DNA from: Halococcus qingdaonensis
Lineage (GTDB): Archaea > Halobacteriota > Halobacteria > Halobacteriales > Halococcaceae
Direction: 5' to 3'
DNA: 64,000 bases
Assembly: GCF_024508235.1 (NCBI RefSeq)
Contig: NZ_CP101943.1
Location: 806,001 to 870,000 of the forward strand
The translations under genes and the position numbers were made by a program. Shown one piece after another: positions 12,113-32,355 of the stretch. The notes under the pieces were generated by a model. The model saw only the letters and a list, made by a program, of their open reading frames with translations, ran no database searches and was not told the DNA's origin. Each line of letters opens with the position of its first letter. Positions within the stretch are counted from its first letter, which is position 1.

Positions 12113-13531
12113 ATGCGCATCGGACAGACGTCGATCGTCAACTTCCTCTCGCAAATAGCGACGTCGATTTTCGGCTTCGTCGTCACCGTCTATCTCGCGC
12201 GCGAACTCGGCGACGCGGTGCTCGGCAACTACTTCCTCGTCGTCGCGGTGTTGGTCTGGCTGAAGGTGCTCGGCGGGCAGGGCATCCAGATGGCCATCCG
12301 CAAGCGCGTGAGCGAGGGTGAATCGGAGGCGGCGTTCTTCGGTGCGGGACTCACCCTCCAACTGGTCGCGTTCGTCGTGCTCGCGGGTACGATTCTCGTC
12401 TTCCGCGGGCCAGTCAACGACTACCTCAGAACCGACGCAGCGCTCGGGCTGATCGCGCTGCTCGCCACCGGACTCCTCGTTTGGCAGGTGCGAGCGGCGC
12501 TCGAAGGCCGTCATCGGGTGGCGCTGTCCTCGCTGCTCGGCCCGTTCGACCGCACCGCCCGTGGCGCGCTCCAGATCGGCGTCGTGGTCGTCGGTCTCGG
12601 CACTGTTGGCTGGCTGCTGGCCGGCTACGCGGTCGCCGAACTGCTGACGGGGCTCGTCGGCCTCTCGTTGCTCGCCATCCGTCCGCGGCTGCCGACCCGC
12701 GAACAGCTCTGGAGCCTGCTGGACTACGCGAAATACTCCTGGTTTTCGGGCATCGAATCGCGTACCTTCGCCTCGATGGACACGCTCGTACTCGCGATCC
12801 CTGCCTTCGCGATCTCGTCGGGCCAGATCGGCGTTTACGAGGTCGCCTGGAACCTCGCGTCGGTGCTCGCGGTGTTCGGCGCGTCGGTCAGCACGACGCT
12901 GTTCCCGGCGATCAGCAGGCTGTCGAGCGCCGGCGAGGACGGTATCGAGGGCCTCATCGACGACGCGGTGGCCTACTCCGGCCTGTTCGTCATCCCCGGT
13001 CTCGTCGGCTGTGCGGTCGTCGGCCGGCGCGTGCTCGCCATCTACGGCGCGGAGTTCACCCGTGGCTACACGATCCTGCTCGTCCTCGTGGCCGCCAGAC
13101 TGCTCTACGTCTACCAGTCACAGTTCACGAACGTGCTCGCGGCGATCGACCGACCCGACAGCGCCTTTCGGGTCAACGTCGCGTTCGTCGCCACCAACCT
13201 CGTGCTCAACGTGGCGCTCGTCGCGCTCGTCGGCTGGCTCGGCGCGGCCGTCGCCACCGCGACCTCGGCGACGATCGGACTGGTGCTCTCGTACTGGTAT
13301 CTCCGGCAGTACGTCACGATCCCGATTCCCCTCGGCGAACTGGCGAGCCAGGTGCTCGCCGCGGTCGCGATGGGCGTCGTCGTCCTCGTCGGCCGCGGGT
13401 TCGCCGGTGCGGGCGTCGCGTGGACGGTCGCACTGGTCGCCGTCGGCGGCGCTGCCTATTTCGCCACGCTGACCGCGCTCTCGCGGCGGTTCCGGGCGAC
13501 CGTCCGGCGGAACCTACCGGCTGTCGGATGA
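12113..13531 (+). CDS. Polysaccharide flippase (Wzx/MATE-like)
   Basis: Multi-pass membrane protein of 472 residues with roughly 12-14 hydrophobic segments. The N-terminus MRIGQTSIVNFLSQI and the early YLARELGDAVLGNYFL stretch are typical of the polysaccharide biosynthesis (Wzx/RfbX) flippases that turn lipid-linked glycans across the membrane. In haloarchaea AglR is a related protein in N-glycosylation. It begins nine bases after the preceding sulfatase-like gene and is probably co-transcribed with it. The substrate glycan is unknown. Confidence 0.87.
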   Translation: MRIGQTSIVNFLSQIATSIFGFVVTVYLARELGDAVLGNYFLVVAVLVWLKVLGGQGIQMAIRKRVSEGESEAAFFGAGLTLQLVAFVVLAGTILVFRGPVNDYLRTDAALGLIALLATGLLVWQVRAALEGRHRVALSSLLGPFDRTARGALQIGVVVVGLGTVGWLLAGYAVAELLTGLVGLSLLAIRPRLPTREQLWSLLDYAKYSWFSGIESRTFASMDTLVLAIPAFAISSGQIGVYEVAWNLASVLAVFGASVSTTLFPAISRLSSAGEDGIEGLIDDAVAYSGLFVIPGLVGCAVVGRRVLAIYGAEFTRGYTILLVLVAARLLYVYQSQFTNVLAAIDRPDSAFRVNVAFVATNLVLNVALVALVGWLGAAVATATSATIGLVLSYWYLRQYVTIPIPLGELASQVLAAVAMGVVVLVGRGFAGAGVAWTVALVAVGGAAYFATLTALSRRFRATVRRNLPAVG

Positions 13532-17043: not shown

Positions 17044-17097
17044 GGCCGGCGCGGGGAGTGCCAAAGGGTTTTGCGCGTGGCCCGACGAGAGCGGGCA

Positions 17098-18132
17098 ATG
17101 GCCGATCGCGGTGACGTCTGCGTCCTGATTCCTACCTTCGACGAGGCCGCGACCATCGGCGGCGTCGTCGACGGCTTCGTCGAGCGCGGCTTTTCCAACG
17201 TGCTCGTCGTCGATGGTCACTCGACCGATGGCACGCGAGAACTCGCCCGCGAACACGGCGCACGCGTCATCGAACAGTCCGGTCAGGGAAAGGGTGCCGG
17301 CAAGGGTCAGGCCGTCCGCGAGGGGATCGCCCACTCGACGGCCCCCTACATTCTGATGCTCGACGGTGACGGCACCTACCGGCCGGCCGACGCCGAGGCG
17401 CTGCTCGACCCGCTCCTCGCTGGCGAGGCCGATCACGTCATCGGTGATCGGTATGCCGATATGGCCGACGGCGCGATGACGCGGTTCAACGGGTTGGGCA
17501 ACCGGCTCATCAACCGTGCCTTCCGCACCGTCCACGGCCGCGATGTCGGCGACGTTCTCAGCGGCTATCGCGCGTTCACCCGCGAGTCGTTCGAGCGGTG
17601 CCGACCGACGGCCGAGGGGTTCGGCATCGAGACCGAACTCGCCGTCGAGTGCGTCAAACACGGCATCCCCACGCGGGTCGTTCCGATCACCTACCGCGCC
17701 CGGCCCGCCGAGTCGGAGACGAACCTCCGGCCCGTGCGTGACGGCGCGCGCATCCTGCTCACGCTCTATCGGCTGGCAAAGACGAACAACCCCCTGTTCT
17801 ACTTCGGCAGCGCCGGCGCGCTCTCGGGGTTCGTCGGTGCGATCCTGGCCGCCTACGTCCTCGTCGAGTGGCTCACGCTTCGCATCTCCCACGAGGTGCT
17901 CGCGGTCGCGGCGGCCTTTGCGGTCATCGTCGGCGTCCAGCTGGTGATGTTCGGCGTGCTCTCGGACATGATCCTCGCGATCAACCGCGAGCAGACGCGC
18001 CGGTTCGAGGGACTCGTCGCGAACGCACGGGACGATTCGCGACCGACGGCCGACGACGAGCCGCGAGCCGAGCGCGCTCGCGTGGACGACCGGCGCGAAC
18101 GCGTGAGCGGGCGGGCGGGCGAACGCGACTAG
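17098..18132 (+). CDS. aglJ: Dolichyl-phosphate glycosyltransferase AglJ-like (GT2)
   Basis: Adds the first sugar to dolichyl phosphate in haloarchaeal N-glycosylation. 344 residues: a GT-A catalytic domain (VCVLIPTFDEAATIGGVV, LMLDGDGTYRPADAEALL, DVLSGYRAFTRESF, GIETELAVECVKHGIPTRV) and two C-terminal membrane helices (about 240-300, ending LVMFGVLSDMILAINREQTRR). The whole pattern resembles Haloferax AglJ. The start MADRGDVCVL is preferred over the Arg-rich upstream Met. The last ~45 residues are a charged, low-complexity tail. The stop overlaps the convergent gene's stop by four bases. Confidence 0.9.
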   Translation: MADRGDVCVLIPTFDEAATIGGVVDGFVERGFSNVLVVDGHSTDGTRELAREHGARVIEQSGQGKGAGKGQAVREGIAHSTAPYILMLDGDGTYRPADAEALLDPLLAGEADHVIGDRYADMADGAMTRFNGLGNRLINRAFRTVHGRDVGDVLSGYRAFTRESFERCRPTAEGFGIETELAVECVKHGIPTRVVPITYRARPAESETNLRPVRDGARILLTLYRLAKTNNPLFYFGSAGALSGFVGAILAAYVLVEWLTLRISHEVLAVAAAFAVIVGVQLVMFGVLSDMILAINREQTRRFEGLVANARDDSRPTADDEPRAERARVDDRRERVSGRAGERD

Positions 18133-25130: not shown

Positions 25131-25757
25131 CTATTCCTCGCGGCTCACGCGGATGACCTGGAGCAGCGACTTCACGGGGACGCCCTCCAGTTCCTCGACG
25201 CCGCGCTTGTCGACCAGCACGCCACAGCCGACCGGGCTGCCGCCCTCTTCGGTGATAGCGTCGATCGTCTCGGTCATCGTCGTGCCGCTGGTGATGGTGT
25301 CGTCGATCACGTAGCAGTCCCGGCCACGGATCTCGGCGAAATTTCGCGAGAAGCTCCCGCTCAGATCGTCGATGTCGCCCTCCTCCCACTGGTGTTTCCT
25401 GGGTGCGTACGCCGCGAGATCCGCATCGAGTTCGAGCGCCACGGTCGTCGCCAGCGGCGTCCCGGCTTTCTCGATCCCGACGACGAGATCGACGTCCTCG
25501 CCCCCGAGGAGATCGGCCATCGCGTGGCCGACGTCAGCGAGACGGGTGCTATCGCGCCCGAGCGCGCTCCAGTCGACGTGGATGTCTTCGAGCGCGTCCG
25601 ACGACTCCCGGGTAGTCGTGTCGCTCCCCTCGCCGCGATCGACCAGCCAGCTCGCCGTCTCGCGGGAGACGTTCAGCTCGTCGGCGATTTCGCCGTTCGA
25701 GAGACCCTGGCCCGCCAGCTCGTTCGCGCTCTCGATGAGGTCGTCGACGTTCTTCAT
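25131..25757 (-). CDS. gfcR: GfcR, PRTase-type transcriptional regulator of sugar catabolism
   Basis: 208 residues: an N-terminal helix-turn-helix (about 1-40, GLSNGEIADELNVSRETASWL) fused to a phosphoribosyltransferase domain with the PRPP-binding loop YVIDDTITSGTT (149-160). Formerly annotated as orotate phosphoribosyltransferase-like PyrE2. In Haloferax volcanii GfcR activates genes of glucose (semi-phosphorylative Entner-Doudoroff) and fructose degradation. In this window gnaD, kdgA, kdgK and the PfkB kinase are natural targets, although they are 15-20 kb away. TATA-like CCTATTAC lies about 25 bases upstream. A stem-loop sits between it and the ATG. Confidence 0.88.
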   Translation of the reverse strand: MKNVDDLIESANELAGQGLSNGEIADELNVSRETASWLVDRGEGSDTTTRESSDALEDIHVDWSALGRDSTRLADVGHAMADLLGGEDVDLVVGIEKAGTPLATTVALELDADLAAYAPRKHQWEEGDIDDLSGSFSRNFAEIRGRDCYVIDDTITSGTTMTETIDAITEEGGSPVGCGVLVDKRGVEELEGVPVKSLLQVIRVSREE

Positions 25758-25805: not shown

Positions 25806-26216
25806 TCAGTGTCGCAGCGTCGTTCGGTGGGTCGTGTCACGGCCCGATGTCGGTGACGGGATCTCGCCGCGGAGGTCGATCTCGCCGGCGATGGCACCCG
25901 GGGTGAGCGTGTCGGTCGACCCGTCCCGTCGAACGAGGCGGTTCACATGCTCCATGCACGACCGCAGTGCCTCGACGGCCGCCGCGCGCGTCGTCACTCG
26001 CCCGATCGAGCACTCGCTCGACGATTCCCCGGCGCGCAGGCGACAGGTGACCTCCCAACACTGCGTCAGTTCGAACGGGAGTGGCTGTGTGCCGTCGACA
26101 CACGTTGCCTCGACCTCCAGCCCGCCCGTACCGTGTGCGAAGACGAGTTCGTCCGCATCGATGCGCTTGCAGACCCAGCCGGACGGCAGCTGCACGTCCT
26201 CTGGCAGTGGACTCAT
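25806..26216 (-). CDS. Haloarchaeal hypothetical protein (136 aa)
   Basis: Protein beginning MSPLPEDVQLPSGWVCKRID. It contains beta-strand-rich segments such as LVFAHGTGGLEVEATCVDG and CWEVTCRLRAGE and five Cys residues (CK, CV, CW, CR, CS) with no zinc pattern. The shorter start is preferred over MCLKQVERIEM 10 codons upstream. No signal or membrane segment, unknown fold. It is upstream of gfcR on the same strand but with a 48-base gap containing the gfcR promoter. Confidence 0.6.
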   Translation of the reverse strand: MSPLPEDVQLPSGWVCKRIDADELVFAHGTGGLEVEATCVDGTQPLPFELTQCWEVTCRLRAGESSSECSIGRVTTRAAAVEALRSCMEHVNRLVRRDGSTDTLTPGAIAGEIDLRGEIPSPTSGRDTTHRTTLRH

Positions 26217-26292
26217 TTCTATCCTCTCCACTTGCTTCAGACACACGACAGCATCGTCGGGGTTCTGCCTGCACCTGCCGGCGGGCTAATAC

Positions 26293-27231
26293 CTAGGCGA
26301 ACTCGATGTCCTCGGTGAACCGGTCGACCAGCACGACGAGCGCGCCGCCGGCGATCGCGACCGCGAGGACGCCGCCGATCGCCGACGGCGTCGTATCCGG
26401 GGTGTTGTTCAGCACCTTGATCGCGGGCAGCCTGAGCGCGCCGACCATCAGACTCACCAAGAAGGTCAGTGTGGCCTCACGGTAGTTCGCGAGCGCCCAC
26501 CGGATCGCGTAGGCGATCGAGAACAGTCCGATCAGGGCTCCGATGCCGAACGCGACGACGACGATCCCGGGTTCGACGAGTGCCGCGAGGCTCCCGCCCG
26601 TGGCCAGCGCGGCGAGTGCGTTCGTGAATTCGGTGAGCGTCTCGGTCAGGTAGGTGTACTGGCCGAGCAACAGCAGGAAGAACGCGCCGGAGACACCGGG
26701 GAGGATCATCCCCGCGATGGCGATCGCGCCCGCGACGAAGACGAACAGCGGCGAGTTGGGCGCGGCGTTGCTCACTTCGCCGGAGACGAGGAAGGCGAAC
26801 ACGAACCCGACGACCGCGACCACGATCCGTCGAGTAGTATCGAGCGACACGTGGTCGGCGAGGACGATCGCGCTCGCGGCGATCAGCCCGAAGAAGAACG
26901 CGAACAGCGGGCCGGGATAGGCTTGTTCTGCGATGTGAACGAGGCGCGCGACGCTCACGATGGCCGTGGCGATCCCGAGCCCGAGCGCGAGCAGGAAAGG
27001 AATGTCCATCGCGACGAGCGCCGCCCGGAACTCGGCGCGGCCGCGTCGACGGTGGAGTCGCGGGAGATAGCGCAACGCGCGCGGATCGAGGCTCGTGATG
27101 GCCTGAATGAGTCGCTCGTAGATGCCAGTGATGAGCGCGATCGTCCCGCCGGAGACCCCCGGCACCGCGTCGGCGGCACCCATGAAGATCCCCTTCAGAT
27201 AGACCGTGAGCAGCTCGCGTCCGGCGCTCAT
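26293..27231 (-). CDS. DUF368 polyprenyl-phosphate translocase (PopT-like)
   Basis: 312-residue membrane protein with about eight or more helices. It shows the internal duplication of DUF368: ADAVPGVSGG (residues 21-29) and GMILPGVSGA (174-183). Bacterial DUF368 proteins were recently shown to return undecaprenyl phosphate across the membrane. The start overlaps the aglB stop by four bases (ATGA at 27228-27231), so it is translationally coupled to the oligosaccharyltransferase. The likely role is to recycle dolichyl phosphate after glycan transfer, an inference. A long upstream frame is rejected because it runs antiparallel-frame through aglB. Confidence 0.85.
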   Translation of the reverse strand: MSAGRELLTVYLKGIFMGAADAVPGVSGGTIALITGIYERLIQAITSLDPRALRYLPRLHRRRGRAEFRAALVAMDIPFLLALGLGIATAIVSVARLVHIAEQAYPGPLFAFFFGLIAASAIVLADHVSLDTTRRIVVAVVGFVFAFLVSGEVSNAAPNSPLFVFVAGAIAIAGMILPGVSGAFFLLLLGQYTYLTETLTEFTNALAALATGGSLAALVEPGIVVVAFGIGALIGLFSIAYAIRWALANYREATLTFLVSLMVGALRLPAIKVLNNTPDTTPSAIGGVLAVAIAGGALVVLVDRFTEDIEFA

Positions 27232-30200
27232 CCGTGCACCCCCATTCGTGCCCGACTTGGCACACTTGCCTCGGGAGCCGCCAGCGCGCTCGCCGAGCTG
27301 TTCGTGGTCGTCGATGCGTTCGTCGTTCCCGACGAGACGTTCGTCGATGCCGAAGCGTTGCCGGCTGCTGCGTTGCCGTCCGAGGCGTTGCCGGCCGTCG
27401 CGTTGCCGGAATCGTTCGTGCTCGCCGGTGGCGAGACCGACGTCTCGCTGAGGTCGACCGAGACGGTCTCGTTCGTGCGGCCGATGACCGCACCCTCGGG
27501 CACGTCGGCGGTCGCCGTCCACCGGCTGGCGTTCCCGTCCGTGCCCGTCACGGGCGTCCGGAAGCTGTACGGGCCGGTCGCCTGCACCGAGACGTTCGTC
27601 GCGCCCTTCTCGGTGCCCCACTGCTCGTAGCCGGTCGTCGAGTACGGCAGCGTCATGGTGAACTCGCCCTGTGCGTTCGTCTCGGCCTGCTGTGTGTAGT
27701 TGAACGTCGTGTCATTCGTGGTCGGCATTCGCATCTCGACGGTCGCTTCGACCGTGCTGTTCGGCGGTCCCTGTCCTTCGACGGTCGCCCCGTCGACGCG
27801 CTCGAACGTCTTGACCCAGTTCGTCGGGGTCTCGAACAGTTCGGTGGCGTTCAGTCCCGTCGTCTGGAGGCGCTGGAGCGCGCTCCGGTAGAGCGGTCCG
27901 GGACCGCTCGCGCTACCGATGGCGTTCTCCTGGCTCGCGTGGACCAATCGGTACTGTTCGAGCGCCGGCACGCGCTCCTGGGGATAGCTGCCGACGCCGC
28001 CGATCCGGGCGGTGCCGTCCTCCTCGACGAACTGGCGTGCGGCGGACATGTTGTCGAAACGCTTGACCGCGCTCTCGTTGCCAGATGGGGTGAACGCGCT
28101 CCGGAGACTCCCGTTCGACAGCCGCTGTGGGCTCTCGTAGTCGAGCACGACGGGTTTCTGCTCGACCGCGCTGCCGTGGTAGGTGTACAGCCGCGTGCGC
28201 ATCGTCTCGTAGTGGCGCTGTTCGTAGGCCAGGAACGCCGTCGTGGGCTGTTGCTGACCGCTCGACTGGCTGGCGATCGGCGTCAGATCGTCGTAGATCG
28301 ACAGCGGGCCGTCGTTGTACCACGTGAACGGCACGCTGTACAGCGCCCCGCCGGCCGGATCGGCCATCTTCCAGTTGACCATCACGTAGCGCACGCCCTG
28401 ACCGTCCGTGGTGCGTGCGATCTCGTTCGCGCGCGACGCGTTGGGCGCGAGCAGGAAGTTCGCCGCCTGTCCGGCGTTCTGCTGGAACGGGTTGGCCGTC
28501 GGGATCCGCTCGCCGAGCGTCGTGATCCAGTGGCCGTAGTCCCACCACGAGAGCACGCCGTAGGCTCCGTCGGGATAGTCGAAGTCGTCCGTTCTGTCGT
28601 ACTGCCCGTAGTAATCCATCGACTCGTTGCCGCCGCCGTAGGTTCCCTCGGCGGGCGTGTTGTTCGCCATCCAGTCGAGGCTGCTATCCCAGCCGGTGAG
28701 CGACGAACCGACGCCGGATTGCTGGTCGGCGTAGTCCCCGGCGGCCGTCGCGCTCGCGCTACCGCCGATGGCGAGCGGCGCGGTGATGAGGAGAACGACC
28801 GCGAGCACCGAGAGCACCTGATACGCCTGTAGATTGCGGAGACTGGAGCGTGCCTTGGTCGAACCGACGTACCGCAGTACCTGTCCGACGAAGTACGCAT
28901 TGAGAACGGCGACGGGAACGAGGAGGTAGTAGTTGAACCGCTGCTGGGTTAGCGTCGCGGCGGTCATGAGGGCGGCCCAGATGAGGACGAACAGGATGCC
29001 GGCACGCTCGCGGCTGCGTCCGAGGGCGAGCCGAAGGACCATCACCGCTGCGCCGGCGATCGCCGTCACCAGCGCCAGCCGATAGGAGCCGAGGAGGAAC
29101 TGTCCGGGGTTGCGCGGCGGGATCGCCTCGGCGACCGTCAGCGAGGTCGCGCTCGATCCGAAGCCAACGACGCGTTCGAGCTGGCTGACGAAAAACGAGA
29201 ACAGATCGGGCAGGGCGATCGCCATCACGAGCGCGCCGAGTACGAAGAGACCGAGGATCACGCCGGGGTAGTAGAGCCGCGGCAGGTCGCGCGCTTCGAG
29301 TTTGCGTGCGAGCCACGACATGAACACACAGCCGATCGCACCCGCGAAGGCCATCGCCGGATGGAGCAGCGAGAAGTTCGTCACGCTCACCTCGACGGTG
29401 TTGAACGAGATCAGGAAGCCGATGCCCGCGACCGCGAGCGCGACCGCACTCACGATGGCGACGTGTTCGGGGCTCTCGCCGCGGAGATACTCGATCGGGA
29501 GCACGATGAGCAGGAAGAGCCCGAAGATCCCCACGAGCAGGAGGCCGGGCGGCCACGCCCAGACGTAGAGCACGATGGCGATGCCGGCGAGAACGCCCCA
29601 GCCGAGCGGCCGGCGCAGGTTCGCGAGATCGCGCTCGACGAACTGCTCGTAGACGGGTTTCTCGCGCTCGGCGACCGCGAGCGCGACGACGATCGCCGCG
29701 ACCGCAAGCACCTGGAAGAGCACCTCGGCGGCGTGGTGGTCCGAAAAGCCCGCGACGGAGCGACTGAGAAACGTGCTCGGCGAGAGCGCGAGGATCGCGA
29801 CGCCGATGACCCCGCCGAACCGGCCGCCGAAGCGCTTGCCGAGATAGTAGGTGGGGATCGCGACGAGCGTCCCGATGACGGCCGGTGCGAACAGGAGGAC
29901 GAGCGCCGTCGTCTGTTCGGACGGACTGCCACCGCCGACGATCAGCGCGACGGTGGCGACGAGCTGGTCGTAGAGCGTACCGAACTGGCCGACGCTCGTC
30001 CCGGTAGGAAAGCTCGTCCACGGGTCGAACGGCATCGTCTGCGGCCAGTGTCTGACGACGTAGCGGACCTGTCGAAGGTGATACCACGCGTCGTTGCCGC
30101 TGAAGTAGACCTGCCCGCCGACGAGGAAGTTCCGCCAGTTGCGAACGCGGATCCAGAGCATGAACCCCGCGAGCGCGAGCAGCAGAGGGATATGGTACAG

Positions 30201-30272
30201 CCCTTCGACCCGGTCGAGCAGCGGCCCGAAATCCGGGAGCCGTTCGGCGAGCTGCTCCCTGCGTTGACTCAT
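27228..30272 (-). CDS. aglB: Oligosaccharyltransferase AglB
   Basis: Transfers the lipid-linked glycan to Asn of secreted and S-layer proteins at the outer face of the membrane. 1014 residues: an N-terminal DxD-like GNDAWYH (about 59), some 12-13 membrane helices, and a C-terminal globular domain with the WWDYG sequon-binding motif at residues 576-580. The last ~60 residues form an unusual Asn/Ser/Thr/Ala-rich tail with several NxS/T sequons (NDS, NAT, NAS, NVS, NSS). TATA-like CCTTATGCG lies about 28 bases before the start, so the message is leaderless. Coupled to the DUF368 gene downstream. Confidence 0.96.
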   Translation of the reverse strand: MSQRREQLAERLPDFGPLLDRVEGLYHIPLLLALAGFMLWIRVRNWRNFLVGGQVYFSGNDAWYHLRQVRYVVRHWPQTMPFDPWTSFPTGTSVGQFGTLYDQLVATVALIVGGGSPSEQTTALVLLFAPAVIGTLVAIPTYYLGKRFGGRFGGVIGVAILALSPSTFLSRSVAGFSDHHAAEVLFQVLAVAAIVVALAVAEREKPVYEQFVERDLANLRRPLGWGVLAGIAIVLYVWAWPPGLLLVGIFGLFLLIVLPIEYLRGESPEHVAIVSAVALAVAGIGFLISFNTVEVSVTNFSLLHPAMAFAGAIGCVFMSWLARKLEARDLPRLYYPGVILGLFVLGALVMAIALPDLFSFFVSQLERVVGFGSSATSLTVAEAIPPRNPGQFLLGSYRLALVTAIAGAAVMVLRLALGRSRERAGILFVLIWAALMTAATLTQQRFNYYLLVPVAVLNAYFVGQVLRYVGSTKARSSLRNLQAYQVLSVLAVVLLITAPLAIGGSASATAAGDYADQQSGVGSSLTGWDSSLDWMANNTPAEGTYGGGNESMDYYGQYDRTDDFDYPDGAYGVLSWWDYGHWITTLGERIPTANPFQQNAGQAANFLLAPNASRANEIARTTDGQGVRYVMVNWKMADPAGGALYSVPFTWYNDGPLSIYDDLTPIASQSSGQQQPTTAFLAYEQRHYETMRTRLYTYHGSAVEQKPVVLDYESPQRLSNGSLRSAFTPSGNESAVKRFDNMSAARQFVEEDGTARIGGVGSYPQERVPALEQYRLVHASQENAIGSASGPGPLYRSALQRLQTTGLNATELFETPTNWVKTFERVDGATVEGQGPPNSTVEATVEMRMPTTNDTTFNYTQQAETNAQGEFTMTLPYSTTGYEQWGTEKGATNVSVQATGPYSFRTPVTGTDGNASRWTATADVPEGAVIGRTNETVSVDLSETSVSPPASTNDSGNATAGNASDGNAAAGNASASTNVSSGTTNASTTTNSSASALAAPEASVPSRARMGVHG

Positions 30273-30385: not shown

Positions 30386-31333
30386 ATGCGGGTCTCAGTC
30401 GTGCTCTGTACATACGACGAGGCGTCGTTCGGACGCTTTCGCGACGCGGCCGACAGCGTGCTCGCTCAGAGCCATCCCACCGAGCTCGTGGTCGTCGTCG
30501 ACGGCACGCCGGCGCTCGCAGAGCGCGTCCGCGAGACCTACGGGAGTCACGACGACGTTCTGATCCATCTCAACGACGAGAACTGCGGCCTGCTCGAAAG
30601 CCGGAACACGGGTGCGGAGCTCGCCACCGGCGACGTCGTCGCCTTTCTCGACGACGACGCGCGCGCCCACCCCAGATGGATCGAGCGGCTCGTCGCGGCC
30701 TACGAGGATGAAGACGCGCTCGCGGTCGGCGGGCGGATGGTGCCCGAGTGGGTCGCCGGCAAGCCGTCCTTCCTCCCCGCGGAGTTCTACTGGCTCGTCG
30801 GCGTCACCCACCGCGGATTCGGGCCGGGCGGCGACGAGGAGCGCGAGGGGGAAGTCAGGAACACGTTCGGGTCGAACATCTCCTTTCGCCGCGAGACCTT
30901 TACGAGCCTCGGTGGGTTCGACCCGGCGATCGGCGGCCGGAAAGGTGACAAGAACCTCCAGGGTGGCGAGACAGAACTCTGTGCCCGCCTCGAAGAAGAG
31001 TACGACGAGGGTGTCCACTACGTGCCGGCCGCCAAGGTCGCCCACAAGGTCTTCGACTACCGGACGAAACCGCGCTGGCTCGCCGACCGCGCGTTCTGGC
31101 AGGGCTACTCCAAGCGGGCGATGGAGGGGTTGGTTCCCGATTCGACCGGCGAGGAGAGCGCCTTTCTCGGCCGATTGCTCACCGACTTCCTCCCTGGCCG
31201 GCTCCGAGAGCTGTCTCGCGAACCGACCGGCGGAAAGGTACTCCAACTGCTCTCGCTCGTCGTATTCACACTCTTGGTCGGACTCGGCTACTGTTACGGT
31301 GTCCTCAGCTCGCCCGACGAGTTCGAGCGATGA
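30386..31333 (+). CDS. Family 2 glycosyltransferase, AglE/AglG/AglI-like
   Basis: 315-residue GT2 starting MRVSVVLCTYDEASFGRF. The GT-A core has FLDDDARAHPRWIERL with the DxD motif, an acceptor region NTFGSNISFRRETF and GGFDP, and a C-terminal membrane helix (VLQLLSLVVFTLLVGLGY). The sequence resembles the AglE, AglG and AglI enzymes that extend the dolichyl-linked glycan in Haloferax. It is divergent from aglB across a 113-base gap and overlaps the next glycosyltransferase by four bases (ATGA), so they form an operon. The sugar added is unknown. Confidence 0.87.
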   Translation: MRVSVVLCTYDEASFGRFRDAADSVLAQSHPTELVVVVDGTPALAERVRETYGSHDDVLIHLNDENCGLLESRNTGAELATGDVVAFLDDDARAHPRWIERLVAAYEDEDALAVGGRMVPEWVAGKPSFLPAEFYWLVGVTHRGFGPGGDEEREGEVRNTFGSNISFRRETFTSLGGFDPAIGGRKGDKNLQGGETELCARLEEEYDEGVHYVPAAKVAHKVFDYRTKPRWLADRAFWQGYSKRAMEGLVPDSTGEESAFLGRLLTDFLPGRLRELSREPTGGKVLQLLSLVVFTLLVGLGYCYGVLSSPDEFER

Positions 31334-32355
31334 GTGGGGACGAAACGACCAGCGAGCGCGACGATCCGCGAGTGCTCTGGCTCACGCCCGACAAGCCGGC
31401 CGACATCAGCGTCGGCCGCCGCCGCATCGCCGACCGACTCGAAGCCGACGGAATCGACGTGACGCTTCGGGGCACGACGCCACGAACCGTGCTCCAGTCG
31501 TTGCGCGAGCACGGCGAGTACGACGCGGTTCTCGGCACGACCCGCTCCGGTGCGTTCGCGGGTTCGATGCTGAACTCCCTGGGGACGCCGTTCGTCGTCG
31601 ACCACATCGATCCCATTCGGCAGTTCGCCGACACACACGGAAGACCGCTCTCGCTCGCGGTGCGAGCCGCGGAGAACATTGCCTTTCGATCAGCTGATCA
31701 CACCCTCTACGTCTACGACGAGGAGCGAGAACGGGTCTCGCGCTACGCCCGCGAAACGACCAAAACCGACCTCGGGGTGAGCTACGAGCGCTTCGCGAAC
31801 CCCGATCCTGATATCGTCGAGGCTGCACGCGATCGGCTCCGCGAGGCGGGCGTCGATGCCGACGAGCGGCTGGCGATCTACGTCGGTGGTCTCGAACCGA
31901 TCTATCACGTCGAGGAACTCCTTGCAGCGATGGATCGTCTCGACGACTGGACGCTCGTCGTACTCGGGACGGGGTCGCTCGCGTCGGCCGTCGAGCGCGC
32001 CGCTGGCGAACGTGAGAACGTCGTCTTCCTCGGAACGGTGTCCCACGAGTCGATCCCGGGCTATCTCCACGCCGCCGACGTCGGCGTCTCGCTGGTCGAC
32101 GACCCGCACACGCTCAAGGTCCTCGAATACGCCGCGGCGGGGCTGTCGGTGGTGCAGGCACACGGCCGCGCCGAAGCACGATTCGGGGAGTACGCGGCGT
32201 TCTGTGAGTCTCATCCTCCGGAAATCGCTGCCGCGATCGAGCGCGCCGGCGAGCGGGAGGACGACGAGGCGTTCCGCGAGTACGCCAGCCGCTTCGATTA
32301 CGGGCAGGTTGCCGACACCTATCGGGCGGTTCTCACCGACGTGTTGGGTGAGTAA
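31330..32355 (+). CDS. GT-B fold glycosyltransferase (family 4 type)
   Basis: 341 residues. N-terminal domain RVLWLTPDKPADISVGRRRIA and C-terminal donor domain with IYVGGLEPIYHVEELL, VLGTGSLASAV, FLGTVSHESIPGYLHAADVGVSLVDD and the LKVLEYAAAGL stretch, where the E of EYAA is the usual GT4 catalytic Glu. Retaining transferase. No membrane segment, so it acts on the cytoplasmic side, probably on the same lipid-linked glycan as the preceding GT2. Start overlaps that gene by four bases. Confidence 0.85.
   Translation: MSGDETTSERDDPRVLWLTPDKPADISVGRRRIADRLEADGIDVTLRGTTPRTVLQSLREHGEYDAVLGTTRSGAFAGSMLNSLGTPFVVDHIDPIRQFADTHGRPLSLAVRAAENIAFRSADHTLYVYDEERERVSRYARETTKTDLGVSYERFANPDPDIVEAARDRLREAGVDADERLAIYVGGLEPIYHVEELLAAMDRLDDWTLVVLGTGSLASAVERAAGERENVVFLGTVSHESIPGYLHAADVGVSLVDDPHTLKVLEYAAAGLSVVQAHGRAEARFGEYAAFCESHPPEIAAAIERAGEREDDEAFREYASRFDYGQVADTYRAVLTDVLGE

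Follow-up and report, generated by a model that had tools for sequence, protein, structure and literature searches.

A conserved aglB-DUF368 gene pair in Halobacteria and a candidate translocase for the return of dolichyl phosphate

Protein glycosylation from a lipid carrier requires, in any cell, that the spent carrier be returned across the membrane. Our literature search found no enzyme for this return that had been demonstrated in an archaeon. A gene pair in Halococcus qingdaonensis raises the question of which protein might perform the step: the gene for the oligosaccharyltransferase AglB is followed, with overlapping ends, by a gene for a membrane protein of the DUF368 family. Here, we describe the pair within a 64,000-nucleotide stretch of the H. 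qingdaonensis genome (the window) and its counterparts in 145 evenly sampled Halobacteria genomes, in which adjacency was determined from gene coordinates. The identity, order, conservation, family membership, and history of the DUF368 genes, as well as their pathway context, are read directly from the genomes. We consider it likely that aglB and, on its 3' side, DUF368 form an operon already present in ancestral haloarchaea and that DUF368 encodes a translocase that returns dolichyl phosphate (DolP) after glycan transfer; we infer that DolP is the substrate, which way it is moved, and what powers the movement. What is new here is the pathway assignment (haloarchaeal N-glycosylation) for an already known family.

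The overlapping genes and their pathway context

Both genes lie on the minus strand (Table 1). At their junction, the plus strand reads TCAT, which is ATGA on the minus strand, and these 4 nt hold both the TGA that terminates aglB and, overlapping it, the ATG that starts the DUF368 open reading frame (ORF). A preliminary description of the locus had reported this start/stop overlap, and the sequence and the profile identities of the two genes confirm it. AglB matched TIGR04154 (E = 2.7e-267) with 889 bits, above the subfamily cut-off of 450, as well as the Pfam families STT3, AglB_core, and AglB_L1, and its translation contains the WWDXG motif as WWDYG. The DUF368 protein matched PF04018, described in Pfam as undecaprenyl phosphate translocase-like, with 225.7 bits (E = 8.6e-67; gathering cut-off, 26), and is encoded by a single copy in the 2.70-Mb genome. 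Its start is credible because homologues begin at a near-identical position (MREW..YLKG). Taken alone, the ATGA overlap is ordinary and is weak evidence of a functional link. With the window as a baseline, 6 of 32 codirectional pairs have a -4 start, and -4/-1 overlaps are the most frequent spacing of unidirectional gene pairs in prokaryotes (PMC10666635). The -4 overlap is kept in all three sampled genomes of the genus (that of the window and two others). DUF368 is followed at a short distance by a minus-strand gene for a GfcR-type transcriptional regulator, with an unassigned 146-aa ORF between the two.

Table 1. Features of the window discussed in the text
Feature	Position	Strand	Evidence or remark
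MOP-type membrane protein	12113..13531	plus	Weak SpoVB-type match, 6.4e-13, below cut-off
aglJ, first glycosyltransferase on dolichyl phosphate	17071..18132	plus	TIGR04182, 441 bits (cut-off 325)
GfcR-type transcriptional regulator	25131..25757	minus	NF045507, 340 bits
146-aa ORF	25806..26246
DUF368 / PF04018 (VCA0040-like, PopT-type), predicted polyprenyl-phosphate translocase	26293..27231	minus	312 aa
ATGA start/stop overlap	27228..27231	minus	Read from sequence
AglB C-terminal tail	27231..27480	minus	Low complexity
aglB, archaeal oligosaccharyltransferase	27228..30272	minus	1014 aa; TIGR04154, PF02516, PF22627, PF18079, WWDYG
aglG, glucosyl-dolichyl phosphate glucuronosyltransferase	30386..31333	plus	NF041394, 463.8 bits (cut-off 440); divergent from aglB
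Family 4 type glycosyltransferase	31330..32355	plus	PF13692, 6.3e-13; ATGA overlap with aglG

The DUF368 protein is an internal duplication: its halves align with each other (hhalign E = 1.5e-12; probability, 97.7), and each carries one invariant motif of the P-G-V/I-S-G type (PGVSG at residues 24 to 28 and LPG-SG at residues 177 to 182). In a confident AlphaFold2 model (pLDDT, 91.6), each P-G-x-S-G motif falls at a short broken helix, and these breaks may resemble those of transporters with re-entrant hairpins. Scores against the PopT equivalog families (NCBIfam NF052563 and NF052564) were 76.2 and 202.7 bits, below the cut-off of 400, and we therefore class the protein as a PF04018 homologue predicted to work like PopT rather than as PopT itself. 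A sequence search for solved structures of the family returned none. Structural relatives were also sought by fold; the best matches (Foldseek, E = 0.08; VIA-align, Z = 8.2 over 117 residues, SLC19A3) scored within the range of unrelated helical bundles, and the fold comparison is therefore uninformative. Viral copies of DUF368 were searched for, and none was found.

The window also contains aglG, a family 4 type glycosyltransferase gene, and, about 9 kb away from the pair, aglJ (the TIGR04182 profile match in this ORF begins near 17113). The MOP-type protein might flip the charged lipid carrier. In Haloferax volcanii, AglJ and AglG load the first two sugars onto dolichyl phosphate (PMC4335974). 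No PF00953 enzyme (GPT/WecA type, which makes pyrophosphate-linked carriers) was found in the H. qingdaonensis genome (95% complete). With AglJ and AglG present and no such enzyme, the gene content is that of a Haloferax-type DolP-monophosphate pathway, and AglB should therefore release DolP monophosphate directly. Judging from these genes, the released DolP should match the substrate expected for DUF368, with no prior phosphatase needed. Pyrophosphate products, which the preliminary description had offered as an alternative recycled species, are thus unneeded.

The AglB C terminus, in the window as well as in 80 aglB loci, is a variable low-complexity tail rich in N-X-S/T sequons, which in haloarchaeal tails are often arranged in tandem (NETATNETATNET...). 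The tails contain 4.7 sequons per 100 aa, whereas the core contains 0.85 and shuffling the tails would give 1.5. AglB may be one of its own substrates.

Linkage and history of DUF368 genes in Halobacteria

AglB was found in all 145 genomes (above the cut-off in 144) and PF04018 in 144. In 97 genomes, DUF368 is the next gene 3' of aglB and has the same orientation; counting those within 3.5 kb raises this to 100, and the adjacency occurs in 8 of 10 families and 40 of 58 genera (36 always and 4 sometimes). A survey of this linkage in other haloarchaea had been suggested in the preliminary description, and the linkage found is conserved far above chance. In a separate collection of organism-named haloarchaeal records, aglB is immediately upstream of DUF368 in 15 of 21, with examples in Haladaptatus, Halorhabdus, Haloglomus, Natrinema, Halolamina, Halorubrum, and Haloferax; at least two genomes of this collection also occur in the surveyed genome sets. 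Among 15 Haloferax genomes, 14 have aglB upstream of DUF368, either directly or with one gene between them, which at the one locus checked by profile is aglM on the opposite strand.

We determined the spacing at 80 aglB-DUF368 junctions. Fifty fall within -4 to +10 nt (9 at -4, 14 at -1, and 27 at 0 to +10), and the remainder are at 11 to 60 nt (n = 6), at 61 to about 200 nt (n = 18), or over 1 kb (n = 6). Outside the genus of the window, the exact ATGA-type -4 overlap is scattered. Translational coupling requires a spacing of about -4/-1 and is almost gone by about 20 nt (PMC10666635); it is therefore credible for this locus and for many genera but not universal to the pair. The earlier claim that the overlap couples translation of the two genes is accordingly reasonable for this locus, whereas tight coupling fits only some genomes.

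Close adjacency to aglB is absent in 48 of the 145 genomes, mostly those with a detached DUF368 paralogue. In a FastTree phylogeny of 139 DUF368 proteins, linked copies are scattered through the families of the class Halobacteria, and most unlinked copies form one clade (support, 1.0). Many Natrialbaceae-like and Haloarculaceae-like genomes (inferred family names) have their sole copy in this detached clade, which also includes second copies from six genomes that keep both (G005, G025, G044, G091, G107, and G143). The detached copies examined adjoin housekeeping genes. Read most simply, the tree would start from an ancestral aglB-DUF368 pair; a detached paralogue would have arisen later and, in certain lineages, taken the place of the linked DUF368 gene. 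A few further unlinked copies, those of genome G029 and genus g9 among them, look like relocated genes of the linked type. Presence of the detached clade (L163-L182 and others) goes together with loss of the copy beside aglB. A replacement transporter 3' of unlinked aglB is not supported, as mostly convergent genes or nothing is found there.

Proposed role of DUF368 and alternative explanations

In the cycle that we propose, AglJ and AglG would add sugars to DolP on the cytoplasmic face, and a separate flippase would bring the charged lipid to the outside. AglB would then transfer the glycan onto Asn residues in S-layer and other proteins, freeing DolP monophosphate on the outer leaflet, and the 2-fold repeated DUF368 protein would flip this DolP inward for reuse by AglJ. 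Such a return of DolP after glycan transfer had been suggested from the overlap, which itself lends it little; the conserved linkage, the pathway context, and the known activity of the family give it good support. A bolder version, in which AglB and DUF368 form a physical complex made cotranslationally from the overlapping genes and DolP is handed directly to the translocase, seems doubtful to us. We know of no carrier-recycling glycosylation machine of this kind in any domain.

The linkage itself could be explained in other ways. Gene order is largely common to close relatives, as is generally known, and the pair might be leftover synteny devoid of functional meaning. However, adjacency extends over 40 genera with the tight spacing seen in 50 of 80 junctions, and the flanking neighbors are far less conserved than the pair: in gene counts that rest on crude gene calling, aglB has divergent aglG as its 5' neighbor at 49 of 102 loci, and the gene 3' of DUF368 belongs to the most frequent family at only about 10 loci. 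Since the flanks are less stable than the pair, mere shared gene order is very improbable. The linkage might instead reflect a shared lipid pool, with DUF368 flipping the carriers of other surface polymers (exopolysaccharide or DolP-hexoses) or contributing to lipid balance in general at high salt. Sit et al. (PMC9876793) suggested a role in adaptation to high salt or alkalinity, and in roughly one genome in three DUF368 is retained away from aglB, with second detached copies in some. Yet the linked gene, spanning 8 of 10 families, is phylogenetically the widespread form, and H. qingdaonensis has no copy other than the linked one, which makes such a shared-pool explanation quite unlikely in our view.

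DolP could also be returned by DedA (VTT) proteins, leaving DUF368 an accessory or conditional part (at a given pH or salt), in line with the conditional redundancy of both families in bacteria. DedA (PF09335) is found in 145 of 145 Halobacteria genomes and in control archaea without DUF368, and the only surveyed genome without DUF368 (G021 [L204]; 1.9 Mb in 120 contigs) still has AglB along with two matches to DedA. Because DedA is universal in the same genomes, DUF368 need not be the sole carrier. DUF368 is nevertheless present in 144 of 145 genomes, and no DedA gene was seen adjoining aglB in the loci examined; we regard DedA as the actual DolP carrier, with DUF368 in a secondary place, as unlikely.

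Outside Halobacteria, the phylum sample yielded DUF368 in just 42 genomes, and the family is missing from most of the remaining archaea there, even though AglB is widespread in archaea. In five Methanomicrobiales-like genomes, DUF368 and STT3 share a strand and are 12 to 16 kb apart; we rejected a linkage in these methanogens, as the genes there (chaperonin, TiaS, uracil phosphoribosyltransferase, and a regulator, at one locus) are unrelated. In Methanobrevibacter, DUF368 comes after uvrA, not after an oligosaccharyltransferase gene. The universality of DedA, the DUF368-less genome, and the distribution in the phylum together indicate that the role of DUF368 is probably major, partly redundant, and specific to haloarchaea. 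DolP return in Halobacteria would then probably depend chiefly, though not solely, on DUF368, which would not be a general archaeal solution.

Halobacteria have no peptidoglycan, and a role in DolP return could help account for the near-universal presence of DUF368 in this class. The conserved pairing of a translocase with an oligosaccharyltransferase provides a defined candidate that can be tested in haloarchaea amenable to genetics.

Comparison with known systems

Earlier publications cover the DUF368 family, its bacterial activity, and the testing of one archaeal member in a heterologous host. The DUF368 protein of H. volcanii at least partly restores the alkaline growth of Vibrio cholerae lacking VCA0040, and dolichol phosphate and halophiles are discussed in the same study (Sit et al., PMC9876793). 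The idea of archaeal recycling is thus not wholly new; the remark in the preliminary description on a step without a known archaeal enzyme agrees with our literature search. We found no mention of aglB in the searched text of Sit et al. (PMC9876793). The searched literature yielded no description of an aglB-DUF368 operon. The companion paper naming PopT reportedly used synteny analyses and may already contain the pairing. The published agl cluster of Haloferax is drawn from aglJ to aglM (PMC5867893), and that of Halorubrum lacusprofundi is drawn from Hlac_1062 (aglB) to Hlac_1075 (PMC10384203). The DUF368 genes of both genera would sit just beyond these limits, and the gene appears to have been omitted from glycosylation genetics and knockout screens.

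Among known systems, the agl pathway of H. volcanii (AglJ-AglG-AglI-AglE-AglB) resembles that of the window in its aglB, aglG, and aglJ genes and in the predicted DolP-monophosphate carrier. AglR and Agl15, membrane proteins proposed for lipid-carrier flipping in Haloferax N-glycosylation (PMC3871713), differ from DUF368 in that their proposed role is to move charged carriers to the outside rather than to bring the spent carrier in. In bacteria, DedA/UptA proteins (PF09335) have been proposed to carry out the return step for undecaprenyl phosphate; unlike DUF368, they belong to an unrelated Pfam family and were not seen beside aglB in a nonsystematic look. DUF368/PopT of V. cholerae (VCA0040) shares with the window protein a PF04018 match well above the cut-off, the duplicated halves, and the conserved PGVSG motifs. 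The haloarchaeal protein differs in having a host without peptidoglycan, a carrier that would be dolichyl rather than undecaprenyl phosphate, and a gene placed in an N-glycosylation operon.
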